This document shows, in pieces, positions 17,678 through 63,926 of a stretch of 64,000 nucleotides of DNA. Position numbers and translations under genes: made by a program. The stretch is from the NCBI RefSeq assembly GCF_000956175.1, contig NZ_CP011070.1, positions 1,420,147 to 1,484,146 on the forward strand, read 5' to 3'. Below the pieces are notes generated by a model. The model was not told where the DNA came from. It was given only the letters and a program-made list of their open reading frames with translations, and did no database searches. The stretch's first letter is position 1; every line of letters starts with the position of its first letter. Source of the stretch: Nitrosopumilus adriaticus (lineage in GTDB: Archaea; Thermoproteota; Nitrososphaeria; Nitrososphaerales; Nitrosopumilaceae).

Positions 17678-17860
17678 ATGAGAATTGAGTCATGTAGAAA
17701 ATGTGGAATCGAACTAGAAGAAAACAAAAAGTGTGATATTTGCAGAAAAGTAAATCAGTTTTTCTGTCACAACTGTGGCTTTACAACTGATGAGCAAATC
17801 CATTCAAAGTGTTATCTTCTGAGATCAAACCATACCATTCAAAACGCAGCTGTAGTTTAA
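17678..17860 (+). CDS. small double zinc-ribbon protein, copy 1
   Basis: A 60-residue protein with Cys at 6, 9, 19, 22, 30, 33 and 45 and His at 42, giving CX2C-X9-CX2C-X7-CX2C-X8-HX2C, enough ligands for two zinc sites. The same spacing and flanking residues (CRxCG near the start, T-[DE]-x-[QR]-[IF]-H-S-x-C near the end) recur at 22429-22650 and 63744-63926. No enzyme residues are visible; an adaptor or nucleic-acid binder is plausible. It is convergent with the histidine kinase at 17913. Confidence 0.85.
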   Translation: MRIESCRKCGIELEENKKCDICRKVNQFFCHNCGFTTDEQIHSKCYLLRSNHTIQNAAVV

Positions 17861-17912: not shown

Positions 17913-19286
17913 TCACTTTACATCTGCCTTTGGAAGTAAAATGGTAAAGATTACTCCTGTTGGTAAGTTTTTGGCAGAAATTTCACCATTATGTGCCTCT
18001 ACAGTATTCTTACAGCTGACCAATCCCAATCCAGTTCCAGTTTGTTTGGTAGTGAATAACGGCTCAAATATTGCCTCCAGAGAATCATCTGGAATTCCCT
18101 CACCATTATCTTCTACAGTTATTTTATCAAACTTTTGTTCCTCTTGGAAATTAATAATTATTTTTCCCTCTTTTTTGCCAATAGCATGAATGGAATTTGA
18201 AATTAAATTTACAATTACATTTTGAATTTGATTTTTATCACACCAAAGTATTCCATCATTTTCAGATACTGAAATTTTGATGTTTTTTGGAAATTGAAAT
18301 GATTTTAAAGAATTTGAAATGATTTCAGAAAATTTTACATTCTCTCTTTTAGGTGGATGTTTTTTGATAAACCCAAGCACTTCGTCAATTTGATGATTCA
18401 TTCTCTCGACTGAATGCTGCATCATATCAAAATATTCTTGGTTTTCTTTAATCATCTCAGGTTTTTTTGATTTCAAGATATCAATTGCCATTTTTAGTGA
18501 ATTCAATGGATTTCTCAAATCATGGGTAATTCTTGAAGACAATTCACCAATAGCTGCCAATCTTTCAGTTTTGATCATCTCTTTTTGATACTTTTCTAAT
18601 TTTTCACCCATCTCAAAGATTTGTTTTGATAGTTGATCAATTTCAGAAATATTTGAAAAGATATGAGGATTTTTTAAATTTCCATCAGAAACACGGAAGA
18701 TGTTTTCTCGAAGGTCTAAAATGGGCCTACTGATAGATCTGCCTAATTGAATCGCTATAACTGCAGAAATTCCTAAAATGATTATGGCTGTAAGAATTAT
18801 GCTTGTGATGGAATTTTGTATTCTAGAATTGATTCCTTGGGTAGAATACTCCATGACGAGAATGCCAATTTTTTCATTCAGCATTATTGGTTTTGAGGCA
18901 TAAATTACATCATCTTCCACTAGAAGCATCTCTTTATCTTCTAAAATTGAAGTTTGAATAAACTCATCCTCAATCACTTTGCCAAAATTATAGTCATCAT
19001 CAGTCCCATCAGTAAATAAACGCCCATCAGGAAATAAAACAAGAACCTGAAGAATATTTTTTTCTTTCTCTAAATTATCAATGATTTCATTTAGTTCATC
19101 TACATCCAAGTTATTCATAGGATTTCTCATTTCACTTTCAGTCAAATCACACAGAGATTTAATTTTTGAAATTGTAGAATCAAACAAATCTCTAGATGTA
19201 AACTCTGCAATAATAATTGAAGTCAGTGATGTGGCAATCAGTACAGGAATGATTGCTATCAGTACAAGTTTGGAATTTAGATTCAT
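17913..19286 (-). CDS. membrane sensor histidine kinase
   Basis: 457 residues: TM1 at 7-27, an extracytoplasmic sensor of about 130 residues (28-155), TM2 at 157-180, HAMP-like linker at 182-235, phospho-acceptor His255 in SRITHDLRNP, and an HATPase domain ending TGTGLGLVSCKNTVEAHNGEIS. The ATG lies 1 base after the stop of the PhnD-like binding protein, so they are co-transcribed. The binding protein is probably the ligand-sensing partner. The nearest receiver is divergently encoded at 20258. No output domain is attached. Confidence 0.93.
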   Translation of the reverse strand: MNLNSKLVLIAIIPVLIATSLTSIIIAEFTSRDLFDSTISKIKSLCDLTESEMRNPMNNLDVDELNEIIDNLEKEKNILQVLVLFPDGRLFTDGTDDDYNFGKVIEDEFIQTSILEDKEMLLVEDDVIYASKPIMLNEKIGILVMEYSTQGINSRIQNSITSIILTAIIILGISAVIAIQLGRSISRPILDLRENIFRVSDGNLKNPHIFSNISEIDQLSKQIFEMGEKLEKYQKEMIKTERLAAIGELSSRITHDLRNPLNSLKMAIDILKSKKPEMIKENQEYFDMMQHSVERMNHQIDEVLGFIKKHPPKRENVKFSEIISNSLKSFQFPKNIKISVSENDGILWCDKNQIQNVIVNLISNSIHAIGKKEGKIIINFQEEQKFDKITVEDNGEGIPDDSLEAIFEPLFTTKQTGTGLGLVSCKNTVEAHNGEISAKNLPTGVIFTILLPKADVK

Positions 19287-22428: not shown

Positions 22429-22650
22429 CTAATTACTAATTGGGTTTGGGTATTTTTCAGGTAATAGAGATGGAGTAATTTTCTCATCATACTCTGTTAT
22501 CTTAAAGCAGATTGACACATGAAAGCGCTCATCAGTGAGCATACCACAGATTCGGCAGATAAATCGCGTCGGAGCTCTGCATTTCCCACACAAGGAATAA
22601 TCAAAGAGCAATCCCCCACATTTTCTGCATGATTCATCAGGCAATTCCAC
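22429..22650 (-). CDS. small double zinc-ribbon protein, copy 2
   Basis: Third gene of a three-gene micro-operon. From a GTG at 22650 it is 73 residues with Cys at 8, 11, 21, 24, 32, 35 and 48 and His44, the same CX2C-X9-CX2C-X7-CX2C-X8-H spacing as the copies at 17678 and 63744, but HX3C in place of HX2C at the end. An ATG at 22692 would add 14 residues and overlap the upstream gene by 23 bases. A 20-residue tail after the last Cys is unique to this copy. Confidence 0.8.
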   Translation of the reverse strand: MELPDESCRKCGGLLFDYSLCGKCRAPTRFICRICGMLTDERFHVSICFKITEYDEKITPSLLPEKYPNPISN

Positions 22651-22669
22651 ACATCCAATTTGCAGGCAG

Positions 22670-23077
22670 TTATGCCACCTGTGGAATCTCAATTAATGAC
22701 TTTTCTTGTAGTCTTGTCGTAAGATATCCGTATGCAGTTTGAACTATTTTGTTGTGATCAAATCCAGGCTCTACTGATAGCAGCATCAAATCCTCTTGGT
22801 GTGGAATTGTAATCATTGTAGTGTTTTCCCTAAAGGAAACAATGGCAGATATCTTTCCAAATGAATTGTCAAATTCTTTTCTCATTGACATGTCAAGTGT
22901 GGTCTCCATAAACAGCATCTCTAGTTTTTTTTCATCAGTCTCTAAAGGAATTGACCGAGATTTGCATTCAGAAATCTTTCGTCCACGATTATTAATCATC
23001 ACTGCAAAATTAATTCCAGGTAGATTGGACATTTTTTTGCAGATTTCATCATATAGACACATTTGCTTTACTTCCAT
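22670..23077 (-). CDS. roadblock/profilin-like small protein, copy 1
   Basis: 135 residues with a helix, then strand (INFAVMINNRGRKISE), helix ending MRKEFD, strands (ISAIVSFRENTTMITIPH then DLMLLSVEP) and a C-terminal helix. This order fits the Roadblock/LC7 fold used by small GTPase and kinase adaptors; I recall a thaumarchaeal family catalogued as DUF6659, not verified. Paralogs are at 39783 and 53055. Its ATG follows the TAA of the upstream GLSW-motif gene with no gap, so they are tightly coupled. Confidence 0.7.
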   Translation of the reverse strand: MEVKQMCLYDEICKKMSNLPGINFAVMINNRGRKISECKSRSIPLETDEKKLEMLFMETTLDMSMRKEFDNSFGKISAIVSFRENTTMITIPHQEDLMLLSVEPGFDHNKIVQTAYGYLTTRLQEKSLIEIPQVA

Positions 23078-23287
23078 TTAGAAATCCTCCTCATCTAGTA
23101 GAGTCCAGGACAAACCTGCAACATCTTCCCAATGGAATTGAGAGGCATTCTCAATTGCAGGGTCTGTGTATTTGATTTTTGGAGTTTTCTGAATCTGATT
23201 TGTTTCAGATTGCTTGTGAATCAATATAGTTGACATGCAATCTTTTGGTTTGAGTATTATATTGGATTGATTGTTGTGTTGCGGCAT
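23078..23287 (-). CDS. GLSW-motif microprotein, copy 1
   Basis: 69 residues; the first 45 are polar and low in pattern, the last 22 read ASQFHWEDVAGLSWTLLDEE-DF. The motif W-E-D-V-x-G-L-S-W-x-L-x-D-E recurs at the C-termini of two other tiny genes (28510-28677 and 40168-40245). First gene of the operon leading to the roadblock-like and zinc-ribbon genes. The start could be Met18, since the motif sits at the C-terminus in all copies. Function unknown; a short peptide that docks onto its neighbour is a reasonable guess. Confidence 0.65.
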   Translation of the reverse strand: MPQHNNQSNIILKPKDCMSTILIHKQSETNQIQKTPKIKYTDPAIENASQFHWEDVAGLSWTLLDEEDF

Positions 23288-27602: not shown

Positions 27603-28460
27603 TCATTTGGCATCAGACTTTTTCAATATTGTGTATCTTTGCTGATAATATTTTGTTGCACTTCTAAAAAAAATCAAGAACCATTTTTTAAGCAAAGCAT
27701 CCTCTTCAAAAATAACATCTAGATTTTTTATTCCGTCAGTTTTTGGTTCAGTTTTTCCAATTGGGTTGTACAGCAAATTAATGTAAAACCAATACGAGAT
27801 TTGTTCTGCGAGCTGCTCTTCTGAAATTGATTCAAAATTTCTCTGAAATTTGATGTGCAGATATGACATTAATTCATAAAATGGAATTCCCTGTTGTACT
27901 TGAATCTGAGGGTTGTCTGCAAGCAATCCATTTGCCAATAATTTAATTCCGTAAATCCTGTTTCCAATTTTTGATTTTAGATAATCCCATTTTCCAAAAA
28001 CTTTTGGCAATACATTAGAATACTTTTCTGCAAGCTTGTCAATTTCGTTATTTGAAAAATCCAATACATCAATGCAATACAAAACTCCATACAATGATAA
28101 TCTGTACTTGTCAGCTACACCTGTCTTGAGACTCTTTCCATCTTTTACTACCAATCCCAAATTTAAAATTCCATCTGAGCGTTTTCCTTTATCTTTTCTT
28201 CCAACAAGCAGTCTTCGGTAAATTTTTTCACGTTCACGCAATTTTGCCATGTCATTTGGAATTGATATTTTTGCAAACTCCCAAGTTGTAAGTGGCTTAT
28301 TTTTTGACATTATTTTTAAAAGTGATTGGACGTTTTGTTGATGTTTAGTTAGATTTGATTTTTTTTCGCCTGGCTTTCCATAGTGAAGATGTGCGTTTGG
28401 GCGCAAGTACATTTTGTAGTTTTGCAAGTTGCCCAGTACGGATTCTGATTCGGAAGGCAT
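27603..28460 (-). CDS. hypothetical winged-helix-containing protein
   Basis: 285 residues. Residues about 35-135 look like a winged helix with a long basic wing (LTTWEFAKISIPNDMAKLRE then GVADKYRLSLYGVLYCIDVL). The rest is alpha-helical and aromatic-rich (SYWFYINLLYNPIGK). A transcription regulator is possible. Convergent with the receiver gene (4 bases between stops). I do not recognise a named family. Confidence 0.75.
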   Translation of the reverse strand: MPSESESVLGNLQNYKMYLRPNAHLHYGKPGEKKSNLTKHQQNVQSLLKIMSKNKPLTTWEFAKISIPNDMAKLREREKIYRRLLVGRKDKGKRSDGILNLGLVVKDGKSLKTGVADKYRLSLYGVLYCIDVLDFSNNEIDKLAEKYSNVLPKVFGKWDYLKSKIGNRIYGIKLLANGLLADNPQIQVQQGIPFYELMSYLHIKFQRNFESISEEQLAEQISYWFYINLLYNPIGKTEPKTDGIKNLDVIFEEDALLKKWFLIFFRSATKYYQQRYTILKKSDAK

Positions 28461-28509: not shown

Positions 28510-28677
28510 ATGAAGCAGCAAACCGTACACAACTGGCAACACTCGCCTTCAAAAACTCAGGTTGCAAGCATCCCTGTAAAAGCAGTGTCAAAATCCTTGC
28601 ACCAAGCCAAGACACCTACCTTCTCCAGTGAGGATTTGATGGGGCTTTCCTGGGCATTGTTTGAGGAGAGATTCTAA
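28510..28677 (+). CDS. GLSW-motif microprotein, copy 2
   Basis: A 55-residue frame (ATG 28510, TAA 28677) with a basic, Ser/Gln-rich front (KTQVASIPVKAVSKSLHQAK) and a C-terminal SSEDLMGLSWALFEERF. This matches the tails of the genes at 23078 (WEDVAGLSWTLLDEE) and 40168 (WEEVRGLTWIFTEE). The match in a short, otherwise unassigned region is the main evidence that the gene is real. The two small genes following it on the plus strand may share its transcript. Confidence 0.6.
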   Translation: MKQQTVHNWQHSPSKTQVASIPVKAVSKSLHQAKTPTFSSEDLMGLSWALFEERF

Positions 28678-39715: not shown

Positions 39716-39782
39716 TGATTTGTGATTATTTGTATATGATCCTGTAGAAATTGTTTTTATTTGCTGATATGCTATGATAATC

Positions 39783-40166
39783 ATGTCTTCTACTGAAATT
39801 GAGAATTTAGAGAAGGCATGTCAAAAAGTTTTAGAATTATCAAAAGTTCGATTTGTAGGAGTACTTAACCCGATGGGAAAGAAGATTGCAGGGGGTTTCA
39901 AAGAAGGTGTCACATCTTTTCTTCCAGACAAAGACAATCAAAAGATGTATGTTCAATTAATGCTCGAATACATGATGAGAAAAGACTTTGATAAGCAATT
40001 AGGTGAAATAGATTATATCGTTTCTAGAAGAAGCAATCTAACAATGATAAGTATCCCAACAAAAGAATACCTCGTCTTAATTTCTTGTCAAAGGGATGCC
40101 AGCGCTCAAGAAATAATCAATCACGTAAATTCTGCTTTCACTACACTGCCAGACATTAAACCGTAG
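39783..40166 (+). CDS. roadblock/profilin-like small protein, copy 2
   Basis: 127 residues (ATG 39783; an ATG at 39774 also possible). It shares with the 22670 copy the order helix, strand VRFVGVLNPMGKKIAGG, helix ending MMRKDFDKQLG, strands DYIVSRRSNLTMISIP and YLVLISC, then a C-terminal helix. The M-[MS]-R-K-[DE]-F-D and T-M-I-[ST]-I-P pieces are nearly identical. Convergent with a GLSW-motif microgene whose stop is 1 base past its own, again pairing these two families. Confidence 0.72.
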   Translation: MSSTEIENLEKACQKVLELSKVRFVGVLNPMGKKIAGGFKEGVTSFLPDKDNQKMYVQLMLEYMMRKDFDKQLGEIDYIVSRRSNLTMISIPTKEYLVLISCQRDASAQEIINHVNSAFTTLPDIKP

Positions 40167-40167
40167 A

Positions 40168-40245
40168 TTATTCTTCAGTGAATATCCAAGTTAGGCCTCT
40201 AACTTCTTCCCAGGATAGATTTGAATCGTTATTGCTCTCTTTCAT
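40168..40245 (-). CDS. GLSW-motif microprotein, copy 3
   Basis: A 25-residue frame: MKESNNDSNLSWEEVRGLTW followed by IFTEE. The tail matches the genes at 23078 and 28510 in W/S-E-[DE]-[VL]-x-G-L-[ST]-W-x-[LF]-x-[DE]-E. By length alone it would not be credible. The motif match and the position beside a roadblock-like gene, as in the 22-23 kb operon, support it. Confidence 0.55.
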   Translation of the reverse strand: MKESNNDSNLSWEEVRGLTWIFTEE

Positions 40246-52429: not shown

Positions 52430-52556
52430 TTAACCTGCAAATGCCATTTTATGCCAAAAAATTTTAGTTGATTTAGTGATATGAATGCACATTTGTGAGG
52501 TGTTGTAAAAATATTACAAACAATCTGTAATGTAATGTAAATTTCAACATAAATTG

Positions 52557-52955
52557 ATGAATATTGTTCCCAAGGTAATCGTTGTAGATGACGTTCAATC
52601 GCATTTGGATGTTTTTTGCGAATTTTTACGCTTGAAAAACATAGATGTTGTTGGAATTGGAAGCGATGGCCTTGAAGCAGTTCAGCTTTATGAAAAGATT
52701 CGTCCTGACATCGTACTGATAGATTTGGCAATGCCTATCTATGACGGGCATTATGCACTGGAAAAAATATTGTCGATAAACAAAAATGCCAAAATAATTG
52801 TAATGACTGCAATTGAGAATGCAAAAAACAGAGAAATGTTATTAGAAGATGGAGCAATTGATGTTCTCCAGAAACCATTTGAATTAAACCGCGTAGCAGA
52901 TGTAATCAACAAGGCATTCAAAGATCAAAGAATTATTTCCAAAAGATACGACTAG
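52557..52955 (+). CDS. stand-alone response regulator receiver
   Basis: 132 residues from ATG 52557 (a TTG at 52554 also possible). VIVVDDVQSH start, phospho-acceptor Asp in DIVLIDLAMPIYDGHYALE, VMTA switch and LQKPFE Lys. Repeated TGTAATG elements lie just upstream (52526-52540). Next gene on the same strand is a roadblock-like protein. Confidence 0.92.
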   Translation: MNIVPKVIVVDDVQSHLDVFCEFLRLKNIDVVGIGSDGLEAVQLYEKIRPDIVLIDLAMPIYDGHYALEKILSINKNAKIIVMTAIENAKNREMLLEDGAIDVLQKPFELNRVADVINKAFKDQRIISKRYD

Positions 52956-53054: not shown

Positions 53055-53438
53055 ATGAGAGTATATTTTATGAACGAACTAAATATTGTGGATCAAGAAA
53101 AATTTCTAAATAGCATTATGAATATTTCAGGAAACATCAGATATGTAATGGTATATGATTTACAAGGAAACATGATACATAAACGAATAATGGATGGAAT
53201 CACTGATCACTTGACAGAGCAAGAAAACATTACTGCATTAAATCATACAATTGAATCATGGAATTTTAGAAATTCTCTTTCAGAAAAAATTGGCAATGCC
53301 CATTATACTTTACAAGTATATGATAATCTAATGAGAGTGATTTTTCCATTCGGTAATGAAATGCTTCTTATCGTTACGTTGGATAATGCAGGCGCACCTA
53401 ACGACATTATCCATAGAATTCAAAAAATCATAGGATAA
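53055..53438 (+). CDS. roadblock/profilin-like small protein, copy 3
   Basis: 127 residues from ATG 53055 (a Met five codons later is an alternative). Pattern: helix, strand IRYVMVYDLQGNMIHKRI, helix, strands AHYTLQVYDNLMRVIFPFG and EMLLIVTLDN, C-terminal helix PNDIIHRIQKII. It aligns with the copies at 22670 and 39783 but is the most diverged; the MRK[DE]FD piece is lost. Downstream of a receiver gene, consistent with a signalling adaptor. Confidence 0.65.
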   Translation: MRVYFMNELNIVDQEKFLNSIMNISGNIRYVMVYDLQGNMIHKRIMDGITDHLTEQENITALNHTIESWNFRNSLSEKIGNAHYTLQVYDNLMRVIFPFGNEMLLIVTLDNAGAPNDIIHRIQKIIG

Positions 53439-63610: not shown

Positions 63611-63733
63611 ATGAACGCAAATTCACCACTCAAGCAGATAAAACAATCTGCCAAAACGTGCATGGATAAAATTTCTTCAGAATATGAAGAAGTCGTTTCC
63701 AAATGGAAGATTGGTAGGAGAAATTTCCCTTGA
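63611..63733 (+). CDS. 40-residue helical peptide with strong Shine-Dalgarno
   Basis: ATG 63611 with GGAGGTGAAAAG just upstream, 15 bases after the hsp20 stop. Amphipathic helix with Lys and Glu (KTCMDKISSEYEEVVSKWKI) and one Cys. It precedes the zinc-ribbon gene by 10 bases, so this is an hsp20-peptide-zinc ribbon operon. Confidence 0.55.
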   Translation: MNANSPLKQIKQSAKTCMDKISSEYEEVVSKWKIGRRNFP

Positions 63734-63743
63734 GGTGCAAACA

Positions 63744-63926
63744 ATGCCAGATACGCTATGTAGACAATGCGGAGGGGAATTGGATGTAGCAAAGAAATGT
63801 TTTCATTGCAGGCATCCAATTCAAATGATTTGCACACAGTGCACAGAGCTAACTGAAATTAGATTCCACAGTCAATGCATGTATCAAGAGGGAATTTTAT
63901 CTCACACAGTCGCAGCACTGGCATAG
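63744..63926 (+). CDS. small double zinc-ribbon protein, copy 3
   Basis: 60 residues from ATG 63744, preceded by TGAGGTG. Cys at 6, 9, 19, 22, 30, 33 and 45 and His42: spacing and length identical to the copy at 17678. Key pieces are CRQCGGELDVAKKC and TEIRFHSQC. Longer in-frame starts reach back into the helical-peptide gene and are not needed. Confidence 0.82.
   Translation: MPDTLCRQCGGELDVAKKCFHCRHPIQMICTQCTELTEIRFHSQCMYQEGILSHTVAALA

Follow-up and report, generated by a model that had tools for sequence, protein, structure and literature searches.

A conserved association of GLSW microproteins with predicted Roadblock-fold DUF6659 proteins in Nitrosopumilus-type archaea

The association of a microprotein family, whose members carry a GLSW motif near the C-terminus, with proteins of predicted Roadblock fold (DUF6659) is real, conserved and undescribed. 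It was found starting from a three-gene operon in the window, i.e., the whole stretch of 64,000 nucleotides analyzed from the closed genome (1,803,090 bp) of Nitrosopumilus adriaticus. The operon consists of the following genes:

23078..23236, minus strand: GLSW microprotein gene, 52 aa, MSTILIHKQSETNQIQKTPKIKYTDPAIENASQFHWEDVAGLSWTLLDEEDF; the ORF can be extended to 23287; pN/pS 0.33
22670..23077, minus strand: DUF6659 (PF20364) protein with predicted Roadblock fold, 135 aa; assigned by 29.5 bits, AlphaFold2 and Foldseek; pN/pS 0.30
22429..22650, minus strand: double zinc-ribbon microprotein, CxxC...CxxC...CxxC...H...C, about 71–73 aa; start uncertain, longest ORF to 22692; pN/pS 0.27

The longest ORFs (23078-23287, 22670-23077 and 22429-22692, all on the minus strand) and the sequence confirmed the preliminary description of three tiny genes on one strand, with the TAA of the GLSW gene placed directly before the ATG of the DUF6659 gene. 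This junction has no gap (gaggaggatttctaa directly followed by ATGGAAGTAAAG), and a ribosome-binding-like stretch, GAGGAG, lies inside the last codons of the GLSW gene, whose 52-aa peptide reads WEDVAGLSW... at its end. Two boundaries were revised. The GLSW gene had been started at 23287; the conserved start is the internal ATG of "MSTI" (23236), since MSTI is common to the relatives and the upstream ATG is absent, or replaced by a stop, in some of them. Likewise, the last two genes had been described as overlapping or abutting. The zinc-ribbon start seen in relatives, (ME)LPDESC, corresponds to about 22429-22650 here and leaves a gap of about 19–25 nt after the DUF6659 gene; an overlap results only if the longest ORF (22692) is taken.

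The operon DUF6659 protein scored 29.5 bits to PF20364 (curated cut-off of 27), a family to which Pfam gives no function. Its AlphaFold2 model, based on an alignment of 43 locus-derived sequences, reached a pLDDT of 90.9 and a pTM of 0.83, with the order alpha-beta-beta-alpha-beta-beta-beta-alpha. All 50 of the 50 PDB matches listed by Foldseek for this model were Roadblock/LC7-type chains or complexes, including MglB, p14/MP1, Ragulator and Asgard Roadblocks, and the probability was 1.00 to 3kye, 1j3w, 1veu, 7yh1 and 9jue at a sequence identity of about 10%. Thus, a Roadblock/LC7 fold of DUF6659 is a firm prediction from modeling, and the initial guess of this fold was borne out. The Roadblock profile PF03259 had no match at E 0.001 anywhere in this genome, and control genomes matched it. 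The literature search found no paper on DUF6659, and thaumarchaeal Roadblock proteins were mentioned there only as NitrOD3.

About 22 DUF6659 genes are present in this genome, 14–26 across eight complete genomes, and the family occurs in 119 of 121 family genomes. Within the class, it was found in the order of ammonia oxidisers; among the other families listed, a single genome had it. At L009:1462-3156, an ammonium-transporter-like (Amt) gene is succeeded after a few nt, in the same orientation, by a DUF6659 gene; the place after Amt is often held by GlnK elsewhere. At L010:1477-2361, a long tail of lysine/alanine repeats (KKKVVKRKPARKTAA), reminiscent of histone H1 tails, is attached to the DUF6659 domain.

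With a GLSW profile built from nine peptides, genes were detected in 48 of the 121 family genomes, belonging to 8 of 22 genera, and none of the further families sampled in the class gave a match. The peptides themselves gave nothing over cut-off in Pfam or NCBIfam. The peptides span about 23–60 aa. A long class (about 50–60 aa) carries the N-terminal module RQPEPxxxLVESxPVKEG, and a short class of 22–26 aa has little beyond the motif (e.g., MQDNNNQSSWEEVIGISWLISDD). In 63 of the 66 distinct peptides, the motif ends 5–13 residues before the stop. The peptides at L102, L118 and L124 have a conserved tail (...YACA/CACA) that places the motif 18–19 residues from the stop. The N-module (QPEPxxxLVESxPVKEG) precedes a zinc ribbon instead of GLSW at L059, L031, L028, L027, L112, L111 and L033; the microproteins are thus modular. 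A strict GLSW DNA pattern matched four times in the genome and not at all in the reversed control. The bare GLSW 4-mer was discarded as a signal, being near background (73 vs 49 in the control) and uninformative alone.

Two extra copies of each family had been claimed in the window, and all six proved to be real family members:

28510-28677, plus strand: second GLSW microprotein, 55 aa, matching the GLSW profile
40168-40245, minus strand: third GLSW microprotein, 25 aa, MKESNNDSNLSWEEVRGLTWIFTEE, matching the GLSW profile
39774-40166, plus strand: second DUF6659/Roadblock-fold gene, 46.9 bits to PF20364
53055-53438, plus strand: third, divergent DUF6659-like gene, E 2.8e-17 to family profile A2, below the PF20364 cut-off
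17678-17860, plus strand: second zinc-ribbon microprotein, convergent with histidine kinase 17913-19286
63744-63926, plus strand: third zinc-ribbon microprotein; its ORF opens at 63684, downstream of an ORF named Hsp20-like by sequence

The GLSW gene at 28510 is divergent from the gene of a 285-aa protein (27603-28460) and lies next to receiver and histidine-kinase genes, an arrangement kept in genomes G074 and G030. The one at 40168 is convergent with the DUF6659 copy 39774-40166, as it is in G074, and the DUF6659-like gene at 53055 directly follows a receiver-domain gene (52554-52955). The zinc ribbons at 17678 and 63744 have the pattern CRxCGxxLx5CxxCx7CxxCx8H in common. They scored 11.5 and 15.6 bits to PF12773 (double zinc ribbon; cut-off of 27.3), to which the operon copy had no match; the Cys/His pattern is conserved despite these scores.

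Among 250 family genomes, 15 from 6 of the 22 genera were counted as having an orthologue of the operon DUF6659 gene, the weakest of them (G007, G231) resembling other DUF6659 lineages. Most of the orthologues are accompanied by GLSW upstream, by the zinc ribbon downstream or by both. A GLSW gene lies directly upstream with the same in-frame stop/start junction in G074, G189, G048, G093 and G105, the junction varying across genera between TAA/ATG, TAG/TTG and TAA/TTG. It precedes with a short overlap in G032, is a decayed peptide (GLFR) in G035, and is also found upstream of a divergent G239 copy (L155). Downstream, a zinc ribbon with PDESCR[KR]CGG or a close variant occurs in G074, G189, G048, G032, G093, G025, G035 and one G239 copy. 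Between the cluster genes, several genera have an additional small CxxC protein (MN[IMV]YDTK) that is absent here. In three g1 genomes, the cluster adjoins genes that, from their sequences, we take to be ribosomal L1-like, Lrp-like and acetolactate-synthase-like, and in g14 genomes it presumably adjoins exosome-type and RNA polymerase/ribosomal-protein genes, recognised in the same way. Since the cluster is found in at least two different genomic settings, its synteny is not a by-product of a fixed neighborhood. It is decayed in G265 and thus dispensable. GLSW has been lost from the operon orthologues L026, L029, L032 and L145, several of which keep the DUF6659 and zinc-ribbon genes. At L145:108-623 (G239), one open frame of 171 aa joins the decayed upstream peptide to DUF6659; it may be a natural fusion that arose once GLSW and the stop had been lost.

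All three operon genes are under protein-level purifying selection. The pN/pS values given above for them were obtained in g1; for GLSW, the value was 0.53 in g14, and a 23-aa GLSW peptide showed 0.32 over eight genomes. Chance ORFs were ruled out by the conservation across genera together with pN/pS of 0.27–0.53, and a phage or plasmid origin was rejected as there was no match in annotated phages or plasmids. The preliminary description had proposed a search for homologues and conserved gene neighbors; the cluster recurs in related genomes, as does the pairing of GLSW with DUF6659, so that homologues exist outside this genome and do sit together.

DUF6659 is the commonest neighbor family of GLSW. 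In a rotation test over eight genomes, whose independence is overstated because they are related, 9 of 35 GLSW genes lay within 2 kb of a DUF6659 gene vs 1.5 expected; this six-fold enrichment was reached in none of 20,000 rotations. Within 6 kb, 17 were found vs 4.1 expected in the same related genomes. The median number of DUF6659 genes was 10 in GLSW-positive genomes vs 5 in the others (p 1e-7, holding after genome size), with independence overstated here as well. The lineage count is the safer argument: the DUF6659 genes adjacent to GLSW belong to at least six lineages with mostly 10–40% mutual identity. Thus, the pairing either originated or was retained on more than one occasion. Many GLSW genes are far from any DUF6659 gene.

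Genes resembling ESCRT-III were observed in or near some of the clusters. In the GLSW-DUF6659 cluster of g14 genomes, a truncated CdvB/ESCRT-III-like protein of 94–99 aa is encoded at the following positions:

L056:8365-8646: truncated CdvB/ESCRT-III-like gene
L057:8408-8689: truncated CdvB/ESCRT-III-like gene
L060:7186-7467: truncated CdvB/ESCRT-III-like gene
L059:5602-5898: truncated CdvB/ESCRT-III-like gene

Against the PDB, the profile of this protein matched CdvB2 (E 0.0042) and CdvB (E 0.0055), and hhalign to CdvB gave 94.7%. A divergent full-length Snf7/CdvB gene (PF03357, 35 bits) adjoins the cluster at L061:6821-7450 (G035).

At a probability of roughly 40%, our leading explanation is that a Roadblock-fold adaptor (DUF6659) and the microproteins that partner it (GLSW and zinc ribbon) are encoded side by side at this locus. 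DUF6659 would dimerise like other Roadblock proteins, and the mostly disordered GLSW peptide would dock on the dimer via its C-terminal Trp-Leu-Trp amphipathic stretch. The analogy is p18/LAMTOR1, a disordered protein that belts Roadblock dimers in Ragulator. Coupling of stop and start may ensure that peptide and adaptor are made together, and the zinc-ribbon microproteins could be alternative or additional modules linking the adaptor to its target. A read-through GLSW-DUF6659 chain, modeled by AlphaFold2 with TAA as Gly as a nearly linkerless fusion with six peptide-bearing alignment rows, gave a peptide pLDDT mostly below 60 and no confident docking in what is a weak test. Further points against this explanation are the many GLSW genes remote from DUF6659, the presence of DUF6659 in 119 of 121 family genomes compared with 48 for GLSW, and the loss of GLSW from some operon orthologues. 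In its favor are the predicted fold, the conservation of the operon and its junction across genera, the enrichment of GLSW near DUF6659 in several divergent lineages, the purifying selection and the N-module common to GLSW peptides and zinc ribbons. As to an MglA-type GTPase partner, with the one profile searched (Arf), no single-domain Ras/MglA-type GTPase was found, none in the cluster, and the only match over the cut-off was a 373-aa protein, HflX-type by sequence. Hence, the scaffold probably serves another partner, which is probably a two-component regulator or the membrane/division machinery, differing by lineage. Unlikely as it must be rated at present, a wider version can be envisaged, in which GTPase-free Roadblock scaffolds (about 22 here) would be addressed by lineage-specific modular microproteins, in which a common N-module bears either a C-terminal GLSW motif or a zinc ribbon, with an occasional truncated ESCRT-III-like component, forming a new peptide-addressed adaptor network in Nitrosopumilus-type archaea.

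The adaptor reading has to be weighed against three others. A serious if tentative competitor is that GLSW docks on another common partner, such as the transcription, division or degradation machinery, and comes near DUF6659 only via a common, fast-changing regulatory gene pool. Most GLSW genes are not beside DUF6659, their frequent neighbors include secreted-protein, receiver and 285-aa regulator-like genes, and the short, C-terminal motif resembles tails read by general machinery. The strong enrichment near DUF6659, spanning divergent lineages, and the tight stop/start junction kept over genera argue against it. Alternatively, the GLSW ORF might act as a regulatory leader: its translation would control the gene that follows, by coupling or stalling, and the peptide would have no free function. 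The immediate stop/start with GAGGAG inside the last codons, two conserved Trp near the stop, and several GLSW peptides located 30–300 nt upstream of a same-strand gene would suit such a role; however, the downstream neighbor is convergent in 20 of 66 GLSW genes, including the window copy 40168, the distance from motif to stop varies, and the N-module, likewise conserved, recurs on zinc ribbons. A leader function is improbable, and as a general role it was disfavored on account of the 20 convergent cases.

The least probable explanation is a relay of a classical kind, Roadblock-GTPase or two-component (MglAB, conservon-like), with the kinases of the window as partners. It would accord with the Roadblock fold, with the occurrence of histidine-kinase and receiver genes both in the window and in the neighborhoods of G074, G030 and G025, and with the fusion of NitrOD3 to receivers in Nitrososphaera (PMC5847659). 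The earlier observation that most copies lie near histidine-kinase or receiver genes holds for this window, where such genes abound, and does not extend to the DUF6659 family. Besides the window copy 53055, only two (L001, L011) of the 19 own-genome DUF6659 loci scanned had a receiver gene within about 1.5 kb, and no histidine kinase stood beside DUF6659 in the fetched flanks (about 1.5 kb) of these loci. Two-component genes are also not near the clusters of g14 genomes, and the Ras/MglA-like GTPase that such a relay would employ was not found. A signaling complex of the three proteins, as proposed originally, is at most a possibility, and a role in signaling with histidine kinases is weakly supported, the two-component linkage being local to some lineages. 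L001:376-1926 holds a pair of receiver-domain genes together with a DUF6659 gene, consecutive and in the same orientation.

Ammonia-oxidising archaea rank with the most abundant cells of the ocean. In the genomes examined, about 14–26 Roadblock-fold genes of unassigned role are present, and their link to an unannotated microprotein family offers a testable handle: a peptide of about 15 residues could be assayed against a small protein that is soluble and has 130 aa. The debate on the origin of eukaryotic membrane control centers in part on Roadblock and ESCRT-III proteins, and Roadblock and ESCRT-III-like fold types meet here in a single small cluster of archaea other than Asgard.

In fold, the system is similar to Roadblock adaptor systems, but the missing GTPase sets it apart from MglAB, conservons and Ragulator. 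With the Roadblock/LC7 superfamily (MglB, p14/MP1, Asgard Roadblocks), DUF6659 shares the predicted fold and the element order; it differs in lacking a PF03259 match here, in an identity of only about 10% and in that no partner GTPase was found. Ragulator is similar by analogy only, in that a disordered peptide stands next to a Roadblock protein; there is no sequence relation and no Rag GTPase, and wrapping would here be an analogy only. In Streptomyces conservons, the Roadblock protein CvnB occurs with a histidine kinase and the GTPase CvnD (PMC4316618). Like them, the clusters described here are multi-copy small operons around a Roadblock protein, sometimes near kinases, but they have GLSW and zinc-ribbon microproteins instead of a GTPase. 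NitrOD3, which may be comparable to DUF6659 in being Roadblock-related, is an output domain fused to receiver domains in Nitrososphaera; Roadblock-related domains thus occur with receivers in the same order of archaea (PMC5847659).
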